Part shown: piece by piece, positions 51,366 through 56,286 of the stretch | How positions within the stretch are numbered: the stretch's first letter is position 1 | Layout: each line of letters begins with the position of its first letter | NCBI GenBank assembly: GCA_015063085.1 | Contig: SUTD01000003.1 | Span: forward strand, 32,001-96,000 | DNA: 64,000 nucleotides | Reading direction: 5' to 3' | Source: Methanocorpusculum parvum | GTDB lineage: Archaea > Halobacteriota > Methanomicrobia > Methanomicrobiales > Methanocorpusculaceae | Made by a program: the position numbers and the translations under genes | The notes under the pieces: generated by a model | Seen by the model: the letters and a program-made list of their open reading frames with translations, nothing else | Databases searched by the model: none | What the model was told of the DNA's origin: nothing

Positions 51366-52172
51366 ATGAGACAGATTGCTCTGTATGGTAAAGGCGGAAT
51401 CGGGAAGTCCACCACATCGGCAAATCTCTCGGCGGCATTTTCTGAGAAGAACTTAAGCGTCATGCAGATTGGATGCGACCCGAAGCATGACAGTACCAGA
51501 ATGCTCATGCATGGAAGATGGATTCCAACAGTCCTGGAGCAGATGTACGAGAAAAAGGACATCAAAGAAGAAGACATCATCTTCGAAGGGTTCGGCGGTG
51601 TACGCTGTGTTGAAGCAGGAGGGCCAGAACCTGGAATCGGCTGTGCGGGACGCGGAATTATCGCGACGTTTCAGCTTTTGGAAAAGATGAAGGCTCTTTT
51701 CGGAGATGTTGTTGTCTACGATGTCTTAGGGGATGTTGTCTGCGGAGGCTTTGCTCTTCCCATGCGCGACGGCTATGCAGAGGAGGTTTACCTGGTAACA
51801 TCCGGAGAGCTGATGAGTCTCTATGCCGCAAACAACATCAGCAAGGCTGTAGCCAGGCTTTCCGGCAGAAGCTCTGCGAAGTGCAAACTCGGCGGCGTCA
51901 TATGCAATGCGAAAAATATGGATAATGAATATGAACTCGTAAATGAGTTTGCAGAGAGAATCGGTTCGAAGCTGATTTGCTATATCCCGAGAAGCAAATC
52001 CGTGCAGGCGGCAGAGGTAAACCGCATGACAGTAATCGAACACGACCCGACATCCGAGCAGGCGGATGTGTATCGGAAGTGTGCGGATTCGATTCTCAAT
52101 AATACCGATTTCAGAATACCAACCCCATTAACCCTTGAAGAGCTGGAAGACCTTGCAAGAAAGTATCTCTGA
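51366..52172 (+). CDS. NifH-like nitrogenase-reductase family ATPase
   Basis: This 268-residue ATP-dependent electron donor is related to NifH, BchL and CfbC. Walker A is GKGGIGKST (residues 8-16), switch regions follow, and the two cluster cysteines C93 (GIGCAGRG) and C126 (VVCGGFA) should bind a [4Fe-4S] cluster between two subunits. It heads a three-gene operon with two NifD/K-like proteins. That partner set does not match NifDK or, as far as I recall, CfbD, so the final substrate is open. Start ATG follows an A+T-rich leader. Confidence 0.88.
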
Positions 52173-53196
52173 AAAACGACTTGGCGGCTGCGCTCTCGGC
52201 GGTTCGCTTGCGGTTACCTCATTCATTCGTGACGGGATAACGATAATCCACTCACCTCAGGGCTGTGCCCATCAGATGTTTTCCGCATATCATGCAATGG
52301 CCGCAGACTCTGATACATTCAGTATTCCAAAGGTTATTGTCTCAAACATCACCAACCGCGAGGTAATCTTTGGAGGCGAAGAAGCACTTTTAGAAGCACT
52401 TGACCGTGCCGACGCAGAAAATCCTGCCCTTATCTCGGTTGTCACCTCCTGCGTTCCGGAAACTATCGGCGATGATGTGGAAGGAGTTTGTGCCTCACAC
52501 TCTGCTGCAGAGAGAATCGTCTACATTCCGGCATCAGGTTTTCTTGGCGGCTCGTCTCAGGACGGAGAAAATATTGCATTAATCCATCTCGCAAAGCTGG
52601 CAGAGCCGGCTGAGACGATTCCAAAAACCGCAGTAATTATCGGAGAGAAGAATCTGGAATCCGAGGTCGAGGAAAATTACGCAGAGGTATGCCGCCTGCT
52701 TGCCCGTCTTGGAATTACCGTTTCCCTTCGCTTCTGCAGAAACATTTCTGCCGCAGATATCAGAAAACTTGGAACTGCTGATTTCTTTATCATTCGCGAT
52801 GAGCGTGTGGAAGAGGCAGGACGCAGTATTGCCGAGCGTTTCAAAAGACCGTATGTTTCATCCTTCCCAAACGGACTTTCCGGCAGTATTCGCTTCCTTC
52901 GTGAGGCGGGTGTGTCCTGCGGAATGTCTGAGACGGAAATCATGGAGGCAGTATCAGCCGAGGAGGCATATCAGGAAGAGCAGCTTTCCATTTTCAGGGA
53001 GCTTTCCGGGATGAAGGTCTCTCTTGGTTTTGAGCCGTTTGCCGGATGTCATGCAGTTGCCCGCGAGGCAATGCAGAGGCTAAACATCTCTGAAGCAGCA
53101 GACGGAATGGAGATTAAACTGCCGTTCTATCTGCCTGTCGGTCTGTCAGGAGTTTTGAAGATGCTGTATCTTTGGCGGAGGGAAAAGAGAAGATGA
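52135..53196 (+). CDS. NifD-like nitrogenase component 1 family protein
   Basis: This protein has about 353 residues counted from TTG 52135; a TTG at 52153 is also possible. Both lie inside the NifH-like gene. Cysteines C19 (GGCALGG), C44 (PQGCAH) and C106 (TSCVPET) are in the positions of the P-cluster or Fe-S cluster ligands of nitrogenase-like proteins. At ~350 residues it is much shorter than NifD (~480). Its partner is the next gene, with ATGA overlap. It probably forms a heterodimer that receives electrons from the NifH-like protein to reduce an unknown substrate. Confidence 0.8.
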
Positions 53197-54284
53197 CGTC
53201 TTGTATGGAAAATCCTGTGATGCCTTGTGCAATGACTGGAGCGTGCGCTGTTCTGTCCGGCTTTTCCGGGCTGTCGGTTGTTGTTCACGGATCTTCCGGA
53301 TGCTATTATTATCCGCGGTCGATTCTTCGGGCACAGCTGTATTCGACCTATCTTTTAGAGTCGGAGATTGTGTTTGGAACGGTTGACCGTCTGCGTGAGG
53401 TTGTATCTTCCCTTGAAGCGGAAGGAAAACCGGTCGCTGTTGTAAATACCTGTATTCCGGCTTTGACAGGCGAGGATTTGGCAAATGCTTTCGAGGGTAC
53501 GAATGCGGTGTTTGTGGACTCTCCGGGTTTTTCCGGAAATGCGGAGGCGGGAGTAAAAGCGGCATACACAGCTTTGGACATTGGAACAGCCGATGTGCCT
53601 GCGGTAAACATTGACGGTGTCTGCGGGCTCGACCTCTTTGCCCGCGGAAATCTGCATGAGGCATTTCGTATGCTCTCGCTTCTTGGAATTCCAATTCGCT
53701 TATCGCTTGCCGCAGATTCGTATTCGAAACTGAAAGAGGGGGCTGCACCGTTTTCCGTATCAGTAAATCCCGCGTGGGATTCCGGAGTTGGCGAGAACCT
53801 TGGTTCTCTCCTGTTTTTGGATATCAGGGATACAATGTCTGCTCTGGAAAAGAGATTCCCCGATGCTGATTATGCGGCACTCGAAGCAGAGTGGCAGAAA
53901 GCGGATGAGACGATGTTTTACTATGCGGATAAGTATCTTCGAAAGTACACTCCGCCGGTTTCGGCAATCGCGGGGCAGGGAAGCTACTGCCGCTTTGCAT
54001 CTGCAATGCTTACCAGATATTTCGGCTCAGACATCGCTGTGTCTCTTCCACGCGAAGAGGTTGTGGATTATACGGAGATTTCCGAGAGGATTTCTTCTGC
54101 CGAGCCTGATTTGATTCTCGGTTCGACCTTTGAGGCATCTGTTTATGATGCGGCATTTTTCGGTATCACCCACCCGGACAGAAGCAGGATTTCGATGTCT
54201 GCCCGTGCGGTATCAGGTGTGGAAGGGGGAATTCTGTTTATGGAAGGGGTTTTAAATGCTCTGATGGATTTCCAGAAACGGTAA
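53193..54284 (+). CDS. NifK-like nitrogenase component 1 family protein
   Basis: This is a 363-residue second component-1 protein. The ligand-type cysteines are C18 (GACAVL), C37 (SSGCYYYP) and C87 (NTCIPALTGED), matching the pattern in the preceding gene. ATG 53193 overlaps its stop by four bases, with GGAGG-like bases upstream. The two proteins are distinct in sequence, as in a NifD/NifK-like pair. No cofactor-assembly genes (NifB/E/N) are in the window. It is convergent with the flavodoxin-ferredoxin gene. Confidence 0.8.
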   Translation: MTSCMENPVMPCAMTGACAVLSGFSGLSVVVHGSSGCYYYPRSILRAQLYSTYLLESEIVFGTVDRLREVVSSLEAEGKPVAVVNTCIPALTGEDLANAFEGTNAVFVDSPGFSGNAEAGVKAAYTALDIGTADVPAVNIDGVCGLDLFARGNLHEAFRMLSLLGIPIRLSLAADSYSKLKEGAAPFSVSVNPAWDSGVGENLGSLLFLDIRDTMSALEKRFPDADYAALEAEWQKADETMFYYADKYLRKYTPPVSAIAGQGSYCRFASAMLTRYFGSDIAVSLPREEVVDYTEISERISSAEPDLILGSTFEASVYDAAFFGITHPDRSRISMSARAVSGVEGGILFMEGVLNALMDFQKR

Positions 54285-55070
54285 TCACTCTCCTTTCTGT
54301 TTTTTCATATCAGCAACAGACGCTGTCGGATGACGATACCGCGGACGAAGCGCTGTTTTCCTTCCCACATTAATTGCCTCTTCCGGACAGAAGTGGAGGC
54401 AGGCAAGGCAGCCTTCGCACTGGTGAAGCCAGACATGTTTTCCGTGATTGCCGATTCTGATGTTGTCTGCCGGACAGACAGAGACACAAATTCCGCACTC
54501 ACTGCAGCGTGGCGAGATGCAGAACTTTTCATCCGATTTGGGAAGGGCTTTGATGAATGGACCGTAGGCAAGCCCCATCAGTTTTCCGGAGAAGCTCATG
54601 GATTCTAAATACTTCCCGCGATTTCTGACCGATTCTGCAATTAAGGCAGCCTTGGTTTGTGCGGCATCATACATCTTTTTCTGTTCCGGAATCTCCGGCG
54701 GGGCAGACAGCGGGATGTAGTTGTCCGGCATCTGAATCCACCACGATGCATCGGCTGCATGTCCTGCAGCAGAAGAGAGCCGTTTTACCTGTGCAGAAGG
54801 AGCGCCCATCCTTCCCCCTTCGGTCGCGACGAAGAACACATATCCTGCATCAGCAAGGCTGATGCTTTTTAAGAACCGGACAACAATCTGCGGCAGACCG
54901 CCGGCATACAGCGGATAGATGATGCCGATAGTGGAATCTTTTGCGATTTTCTGCGGGGCTTTGAGTGCCGCAGGGATTCCGATAAGCTCGGCTCCCGTAT
55001 CTTCAGCAATTTTCCGGGCAACGGCAAGCGAGTTTCCGGTTCCGGTAAAATAGTATATGACAGTATTCAT
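54285..55070 (-). CDS. EFR1-type flavodoxin-ferredoxin fusion
   Basis: This 261-residue protein has an N-terminal flavodoxin-like domain (YYFTGTGNSLAVARKIAED) and two C-terminal [4Fe-4S] clusters (CSECGICVSVCP and CEGCLACLHFCP). It probably ferries electrons between FMN and ferredoxin-type partners. It lies tail to tail with the Nif-like operon and 64 bp after the radical SAM gene, so it could supply reductant to either. Longer starts extend into weak sequence. Confidence 0.83.
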   Translation of the reverse strand: MNTVIYYFTGTGNSLAVARKIAEDTGAELIGIPAALKAPQKIAKDSTIGIIYPLYAGGLPQIVVRFLKSISLADAGYVFFVATEGGRMGAPSAQVKRLSSAAGHAADASWWIQMPDNYIPLSAPPEIPEQKKMYDAAQTKAALIAESVRNRGKYLESMSFSGKLMGLAYGPFIKALPKSDEKFCISPRCSECGICVSVCPADNIRIGNHGKHVWLHQCEGCLACLHFCPEEAINVGRKTALRPRYRHPTASVADMKKQKGE

Positions 55071-55134
55071 GCGTAGAGGTACATTTGAATGCTGAGAAGA
55101 AATGCTTTTTGAAGCGGGTAAAAAAGTGCGGAGA

Positions 55135-56286
55135 TTATTTCTCAATAATCCGCTTAATGAGCGGCATCACCGCAGGCTTTTCCATACGCTTCACGCGGGA
55201 TCTTCTCTGCATCGGAGATGCCGCAGGCGCTTCCATCTCCTTATTCATGCGGGATACAATCTCATCGAATGCTCTCTTGTATGCCGTACAGTGCGGGTCA
55301 ACGCCTTCCAGCTCTCCGCCTGTCGGGGCTATCGCGTTGTACGGACAGCCTCCTCTGCAGTACGTAATGTGAGAACAGTCTTTACAGGCGAAATCCACAT
55401 GTTCTTTGAATGCTGTCATCCGCTTTCCTGCCGGGCTTTCCATAAGCTCTGCAATCGAGGGCTTGTCTTTTACATAGCCCATCACCCACTCGGGCATTCC
55501 GATAAACCGGTAGCACGGGTAAATCGCGCCGTCAGGACCGATCGCAAATGTGGAACCCATACAGTCCGCATACGTACAAACCGCTCCGGAGCGCGTGAAA
55601 ACGCAGCGGCAGAGATCGTTGACGTTCATAATCTCAAAGCTCGGATTCGTGATGGCATAATCAAGAAGCCAGACCAAAAGCTCTCCGTACTCTTCAGGTT
55701 CAAGCGTCCATGCATTTGGATTATCTCCTTTTAAGGACGGAAGTGCCGGGTGGAGCTTCATAACCCATCCCTGGCTCTTGAAGAACTCAACAATATCCTC
55801 TTTGCGTTTCACAGAAGAGTTCGTAAACGTGCAGATGAATCTGACCAGAAGCCCGTGATTTACCGCGATGCGGTACCCTTCCATGCATCGGGTAAAGTAT
55901 TCGTCTCCTCTCTGATAATCCGTTAAATCCTCCGGGCCGTCAATCGATGATCCAAGCGGCACCTTGTACTCGGCTAAAATTTCTGCAATCTCATCATCCA
56001 TTAACCAGAGGTTTGTCTGCATCGCAAACTCCGGATGCATGTGAGCGAGTTCTTTGGAAAGCATTGGAAGTACTTCGCGGTAGAACGAAGCCCCTGCGAG
56101 GAGAGGTTCCCCTCCGTGGAATGTGAAGGTCACATGTTCTTCTTCGACCGGTTTTAACCACTCGACGATGTCGCGGACAGTATCCAGAATCATCTTTGGA
56201 GAGTTCTCATCAGAACTCCAGCAGTACTTACATCTGCCAGGACACCCAAGCGTTGGGATAATCATTACATGGAAGGGATTTTTCAT
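55135..56286 (-). CDS. Radical SAM/SPASM protein, probable peptide-modifying enzyme
   Basis: This is a 383-residue radical SAM enzyme. The [4Fe-4S]-SAM cysteines C15, C19 and C22 lie in GCPGRCKYCW. The HGGEPLLAG strand and SSIDG are typical of the anaerobic sulfatase-maturase group. The C-terminal SPASM region has about 9 cysteines, including CKDCSHITYCRGGCP and DPHC, for two auxiliary clusters. It resembles methanogen families annotated as peptide-modifying (Mhun_1560 type), from memory. No Cys-rich precursor peptide gene is visible next to it. The tail is basic and proline-containing. Confidence 0.82.
   Translation of the reverse strand: MKNPFHVMIIPTLGCPGRCKYCWSSDENSPKMILDTVRDIVEWLKPVEEEHVTFTFHGGEPLLAGASFYREVLPMLSKELAHMHPEFAMQTNLWLMDDEIAEILAEYKVPLGSSIDGPEDLTDYQRGDEYFTRCMEGYRIAVNHGLLVRFICTFTNSSVKRKEDIVEFFKSQGWVMKLHPALPSLKGDNPNAWTLEPEEYGELLVWLLDYAITNPSFEIMNVNDLCRCVFTRSGAVCTYADCMGSTFAIGPDGAIYPCYRFIGMPEWVMGYVKDKPSIAELMESPAGKRMTAFKEHVDFACKDCSHITYCRGGCPYNAIAPTGGELEGVDPHCTAYKRAFDEIVSRMNKEMEAPAASPMQRRSRVKRMEKPAVMPLIKRIIEK

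Follow-up and report, generated by a model that had tools for sequence, protein, structure and literature searches.

A CfbC-type Fe protein encoded with a two-subunit nitrogenase-like component 1 in Methanomicrobiales: a candidate second tetrapyrrole reductase

The window analyzed here is a stretch of 64,000 nucleotides from a Methanocorpusculum metagenome-assembled genome (MAG; 80% complete, 1.40 Mb; G000 in what follows), whose closest named relatives, likewise MAGs, come from the guts of goat and cattle. Between positions 51366 and 54284, the window carries three co-directional, overlapping open reading frames, referred to as H, D, and K:

51366 to 52172, + strand: H, CfbC-type Fe protein of the NifH family, 268 aa, PF00142
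52135 to 53196, + strand: D, alpha-type component-1 subunit, 353 aa, TTG start, PF00148
53193 to 54284, + strand: K, beta-type component-1 subunit, 363 aa, ATG start, PF00148

The family assignments lie far past chance, with E values of 3.5e-104 for the match of H to PF00142 and of 1.8e-47 and 1.7e-24 for the matches of D and K, respectively, to PF00148. H carries a P-loop (GKGGIGKS, residues 8-15) and, by reading of its translation, places Cys93 and Cys126 at the positions of the [4Fe-4S] ligands. The original prediction, which described a NifH-like ATPase with both cluster cysteines and, in overlapping genes, two component-1 proteins with three cysteines each, is borne out on all of these points, the cysteines of D and K falling in NifDK ligand columns. 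D overlaps H by 38 bp, and its TTG start is backed by an ATG at the equivalent place in one relative. For K, the ATG at 53193 is preferred over the TTG at 53172 that had been chosen earlier, since it overlaps the stop codon of D as ATGA, lies downstream of a GGAGG motif, and is close to where the K starts of relatives fall. Ratios of dN/dS against three close relatives (H, 0.01-0.04; D, 0.09-0.11; K, approximately 0.06) indicate that all three genes are under strong selection, and the divergent orientation of the upstream neighbor and convergent orientation of the downstream one limit the operon to H, D, and K. A gene for an EFR1-family flavodoxin-ferredoxin (54285-55145, - strand) abuts K tail to tail, and a TIGR04083 peptide-modifying radical SAM/SPASM enzyme (648 bits) is encoded at 55135-56286, also on the - strand. 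Both were considered as operon partners, the EFR1 ferredoxin as a possible electron donor, and both were rejected on account of their opposite strand and of an adjacency that is not conserved.

H scores 421.8 bits against NF033200 (F430_CfbC), passing the curated cut-off of 402, and 382 bits against the NifH model, below the cut-off of 394. The NifH proteins of relatives reach 375-394 bits against NF033200, all below 402, and family-wide the operon H is the sole source of scores above the CfbC cut-off. The margin is modest, and elimination is the stronger argument: most non-diazotrophic relatives encode H as their only NifH-type protein and a one-gene CfbD elsewhere, which makes H the only candidate CfbD reductase in many of them. 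Such is the case in G012, G013, G023, G025, G027, G028, G042, and G043, which are 95-99% complete and carry a canonical CfbD away from H; across such relatives without nif genes, completeness is 94-99%. In G024 (1,804,962 bases), which we take to be M. labreanum Z, H-D-K occupy positions 149-151 kb, approximately 340 kb away from CfbD (493 kb). In six genomes of five genera other than Methanospirillum a cfbA-cfbE-cfbD-cfbB cluster lies about 11-18 kb from H-D-K and, in all six, carries no cfbC of its own. Within the order, 207 of 232 Methanomicrobiales genomes encode CfbD and 199 encode CfbC above the respective cut-offs, and in 78 of 80 named loci D is immediately preceded by H, while contig ends truncate the remaining two.

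The history of H is less straightforward. In a free tree, the operon H and the CfbC of Methanospirillum are found outside the CfbC of other orders and nearer NifH; forcing all CfbC proteins into one clade carries a penalty of 12.4 log units and only just escapes rejection (AU p 0.057). It is possible that an old CfbC was replaced by another Fe protein, which is now H, but with either a single CfbC clade or such a replacement, the two partners are left with a single reductase. Its score above the CfbC cut-off and the lack of any other NifH-type protein in high-quality genomes of relatives with CfbD suggest that H is, in all likelihood, the reductase of CfbD as well as of D/K.

At a threshold of E <= 1e-50, D is present in 200 of the 232 Methanomicrobiales genomes, and it is found only in this order, its profile yielding 318-598 bits inside Methanomicrobiales and at most 156 bits for the next proteins. 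It is absent from all 12 genomes of Methanospirillum (group g36). In G197 (3,544,738 bases), presumably M. hungatei JF-1, an orthologous H occupies the same locus, between an FprA-kinase pair and a 140-aa gene, without D or K; it scores 419.2 bits against the CfbC model, above the cut-off, and groups with the operon H with a support of 98-99. The CfbD of Methanospirillum is encoded approximately 130 kb from H. The retention of H without D/K in this genus indicates that H is needed in their absence, as expected if it serves CfbD. That Methanospirillum lives without D/K could also point to a paralogue that is in decay, or has a regulatory role alone, and persists through its linkage to cfbC without being a reductase in its own right; such a fate is most improbable, however, for proteins with a distribution as wide as that of D, with invariant cysteines in both subunits, and with dN/dS values of 0.06-0.11.

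The conserved neighbors of the operon are TrkH, FprA, the kinase, leuBCD, and the 140-aa protein; at the loci compared they provide no clue to a substrate, and the presence of TrkH, FprA, and leuBCD seems to be a matter of inherited synteny. The protein of about 140 aa is conserved and encoded next after K in many Methanomicrobiales, or next after cfbC in those devoid of D/K (e.g., L174:8071-8490), and has no match among Pfam or NCBIfam families. In Methanoculleus the D-K operon is split, K being located 2-5 kb from D in the loci read; unrelated genes lie between the two (L067, L088, L112, and others), and K is on the opposite strand in some. A member of this genus, Methanoculleus thermophilus, is genetically tractable (PMC9081873).

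The relationship of D and K to other component-1 proteins was addressed with a tree of 77 sequences, among them CfbD, NifDK, NifEN, and Bch proteins and fused archaeal systems. D (support 100/99), K (100/100), and CfbD (100/100) form clades that all stand apart. Of the two sides of a deep split that is weakly supported, D is found on that of NifD/NifE and K on that of NifK/NifN; the sister of D is a fused archaeal NifH-NifE (100/99), and that of K is the N partner of the same system (91/70). Model scores agree with this separation, since D and K reach 35.4 and 34.9 bits against the CfbD model TIGR03282 (cut-off 268.4) and 85 and 39 bits against the NifE model (cut-off 505). Both remain below the cut-offs of the NifE/NifN models and of those for DPOR and COR, and outside the Bch/Chl subunits in the tree, and D is below the cut-off of every NCBIfam equivalog. 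The possibility that D, the second gene, is CfbD is thus ruled out by score and tree. CfbD itself is described as the sole homodimer (PMC11423573, PMC12176620); it is the product of one gene and bears Ser at the C62/C70 position, whereas D/K are the products of two genes and offer six cysteines. By sequence, then, D and K are a distinct predicted two-subunit component 1, separate from CfbD, NifDK, NifEN, and the Bch proteins, and they may be taken as one heteromer in view of their paired alpha and beta clades, their common sister system, and the retention of K near D in Methanoculleus.

These results divide the original proposal of a wholly distinct system. Its view of a component 1 with two subunits unlike the one-gene CfbD holds, as does the phylogeny it had called for, in which D and K occupy clades of their own; H, by contrast, is identified as CfbC both by the curated model and through elimination. 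The proposal had also named the chance that the first two genes are CfbC and CfbD, which is correct for the first and not for the second (35 bits against 268). As for the separate cfbCD that might lie elsewhere, CfbD is indeed encoded elsewhere in relatives and was not recovered in G000, where H is the sole PF00142 protein.

The cysteines of D at P-cluster positions (Cys19, Cys44, and Cys106) are invariant in 51 aligned sequences, and those of K (Cys12, 37, and 87, counted from the ATG at 53193, or 19, 44, and 94 from the TTG at 53172) in 47. They fall in the NifD C62/C88/C154 and NifK C70/C95/C153 columns, and no D or K among those compared has a residue other than Cys at any of the six NifDK P-cluster positions, of which NifN lacks two. 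At the positions of the FeMo-cofactor ligands alphaC275 and alphaH442, on the other hand, all D and K are unconserved or gapped, a difference from NifDK that is accompanied by a length smaller by about 100 or more residues than that of NifDK or NifEN subunits. AlphaFold models (pLDDT 90.5 for D and 92.4 for K) show a fold of D that resembles NifD, MarD, NifE, and BchB with TM values of 0.61-0.71, while the best match of K is BchB of DPOR (3aer; TM 0.81, a likeness of fold only). DPOR (BchLNB/ChlLNB) and COR (BchXYZ) resemble D/K in possessing a two-subunit component 1 without FeMo-cofactor ligands; BchB, however, has Asp at the second Cys position and BchZ lacks two Cys, whereas D/K have all six, are approximately 60-150 residues shorter, and do not group with the Bch proteins.

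NifE is both the best family match and the best solved-sequence match of D, and methanogens use [8Fe-9S-C] clusters in the activation of methyl-coenzyme M reductase (MCR), for which they need NifB (PMC12176620). It could thus be imagined that D/K form a NifEN-like scaffold whose task, together with H, is the storage or maturation of an Fe-S cluster (the L-cluster made by NifB, for instance) destined for the MCR activation complex or another target. This role is unlikely, since the NifE cofactor-binding Cys (the alphaC275 equivalent) is gone from both D and K, and the two proteins are approximately 100 residues shorter than NifE/N. Moreover, MCR activation is universal in methanogens, and D is confined to a single order and missing from Methanospirillum.

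The Group IV Nfl systems MarHDK (methylthio-alkane reductase) and IsrHDK (isethionate reductase), which, with CfbD and MCR activation, are treated in PMC11423573, PMC12552129, and PMC12176620, evoke another possibility, namely that H is the reductase native to an H-D-K system that acts on a non-tetrapyrrole such as a sulfur compound, its CfbC role being secondary. The gene order HDK is that of the operon, Mar has complete P-cluster cysteines, as D/K do, and acts on methylthio-alkanes (PMC12552129), and the free tree, with H closer to NifH than canonical CfbC, is consistent with such an origin. Mar and Isr, however, travel with a radical-SAM B gene as BHDK sets (PMC11423573), while neither a conserved radical-SAM neighbor, at the loci compared, nor a sulfur gene accompanies H-D-K; Mar carries an [Fe8S9C] active-site cluster (PMC12552129), and D/K are devoid of its known ligands. 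With the closest relatives of D/K residing in corrinoid-type operons, a non-tetrapyrrole substrate also appears improbable.

Those relatives, the fused NifH-NifE and NifN-like proteins, are likewise without FeMo-cofactor ligands. Archaeal nitrogenase-like proteins that include fused H-E forms were reported by Dos Santos 2012 (PMC3464626), along with Mlab_1039/1040 of M. labreanum. The operons of the sister systems encode a periplasmic binding protein, a BtuC-like FecCD permease and its ATPase, CbiK, and CobN pieces, and in one case also CbiZ. H-D-K differ from them in consisting of three separate genes, in a K subunit with three Cys where the N subunit has Asp, Cys, and Pro, and in not being placed beside a BtuC-like importer and corrinoid genes.

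Gene content, family placement, the single-reductase distribution, cysteine sites, missing cofactor ligands, and fold are direct observations, and the reading that seems best suited to them, with a probability of roughly one half, is that D/K form a CfbC-driven D2K2 tetrapyrrole reductase, H being common to CfbD and D/K. H would function as an ATP-driven dimer with one [4Fe-4S] cluster, and its electrons would pass either to the one-gene CfbD, encoded elsewhere, for F430 synthesis, or to a D2K2 heterotetramer of the products of the next two genes, whose D-K interface is predicted to hold a P-cluster-type cluster on six cysteines. Because D/K are without ligands for a FeMo-type or L-cluster cofactor, an organic substrate would be reduced in an open cavity, as in DPOR, COR, and CfbD, and this substrate would most likely be a tetrapyrrole, either a compound of the F430 pathway or a corrinoid; ATP-driven tetrapyrrole reduction is also the chemistry of CfbC/CfbD. 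The corrinoid-type operons of relatives and the missing ligands favor a tetrapyrrole, as do the resemblance of K to BchB in fold and the probable sharing of CfbC, by analogy rather than from D/K themselves: the six-Cys NifDK and MarDK carry complex clusters, so that the argument leans on the relatives and on the missing ligands.

Methane cannot be formed without F430 synthesis, in which CfbC has CfbD as its known partner. If the sole CfbC also drives D/K, a large order of methanogens would possess a further ATP-dependent reduction in its cofactor metabolism, with a single Fe protein for two partners, one a homodimer and the other a heterotetramer. The presence in D/K of full P-cluster ligands without active-site cofactor ligands also bears on the relationship between nitrogenases and tetrapyrrole reductases. 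A search of mostly open-access literature returned no report of a CfbC operon with a two-subunit component 1, of a CfbC with two partners, or of cfbC in Methanomicrobiales. The bolder form of the proposal, in which CfbC-D-K are an order-specific second tetrapyrrole reductase with an undescribed F430-type or corrinoid product and a shared Fe protein, and possibly the only component 1 of the gut lineage, is doubtful, although conceivable.

The gut lineage raises the question of a closer link to F430 synthesis. Neither CfbD, CfbE, nor any PF00148 protein other than D/K was found in the assemblies G000, G031, G032, and G033 (MAGs, 69-92% complete), and in G000 (80% complete) no PF00142 protein other than H was found either; McrA is present in G000, G031, and G032. 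A related genome, G030, carries cfbE-D-B at L161:8708-12219, and a contig of G032 (L233:13666-17100) is unbroken across that site without them. D/K, which have the cfbC gene in common with the CfbD step, might on these grounds be an auxiliary or alternative for that step (reduction of Ni-sirohydrochlorin a,c-diamide) and replace CfbD in this lineage. This is quite unlikely, since most other genomes of the order hold both CfbD and D/K, and since cfbE is gone together with cfbD, in genomes that are all MAGs; with the whole cluster missing, the absence of CfbD is no evidence for its replacement by D/K, which was not accepted. The cfbE-cfbD genes of G000 and its close relatives may have been lost, relocated, or missed in binning. 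In G030, the block L161:7330-17827 (G030:C14), which includes cfbE-D-B and a second hemD-like gene, is approximately 75% identical to relatives where alignable and has a sharp edge to 99% identical DNA, a pattern that suggests import by recombination from another Methanocorpusculum lineage.

Mlab_1039/1040 form a nitrogenase-like HDK-type cluster within the same genus as the window. This ABC-transporter-linked cluster of Dos Santos 2012 was considered as a counterpart of the operon and ruled out as a different locus, being located at about 1.05 Mb, with H-D-K at 149 kb, and having fewer cysteines and a patchy distribution. The nitrogenase-like H/D/K-type cluster that M. labreanum carries in addition to H-D-K, which is divergent and has reduced cysteines, is found at L158:6430-9566 (G024:C1, ~1.05 Mb) and is probably this one (Mlab_1039-1041); in G039, a stop codon interrupts the H frame of the corresponding cluster. 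An additional component-1-type gene of about 460 aa occurs at L172:7306-8700 and L167:5142-6533, and in G070 a gene of this type and size lies approximately 2.3 kb downstream of cfbD.
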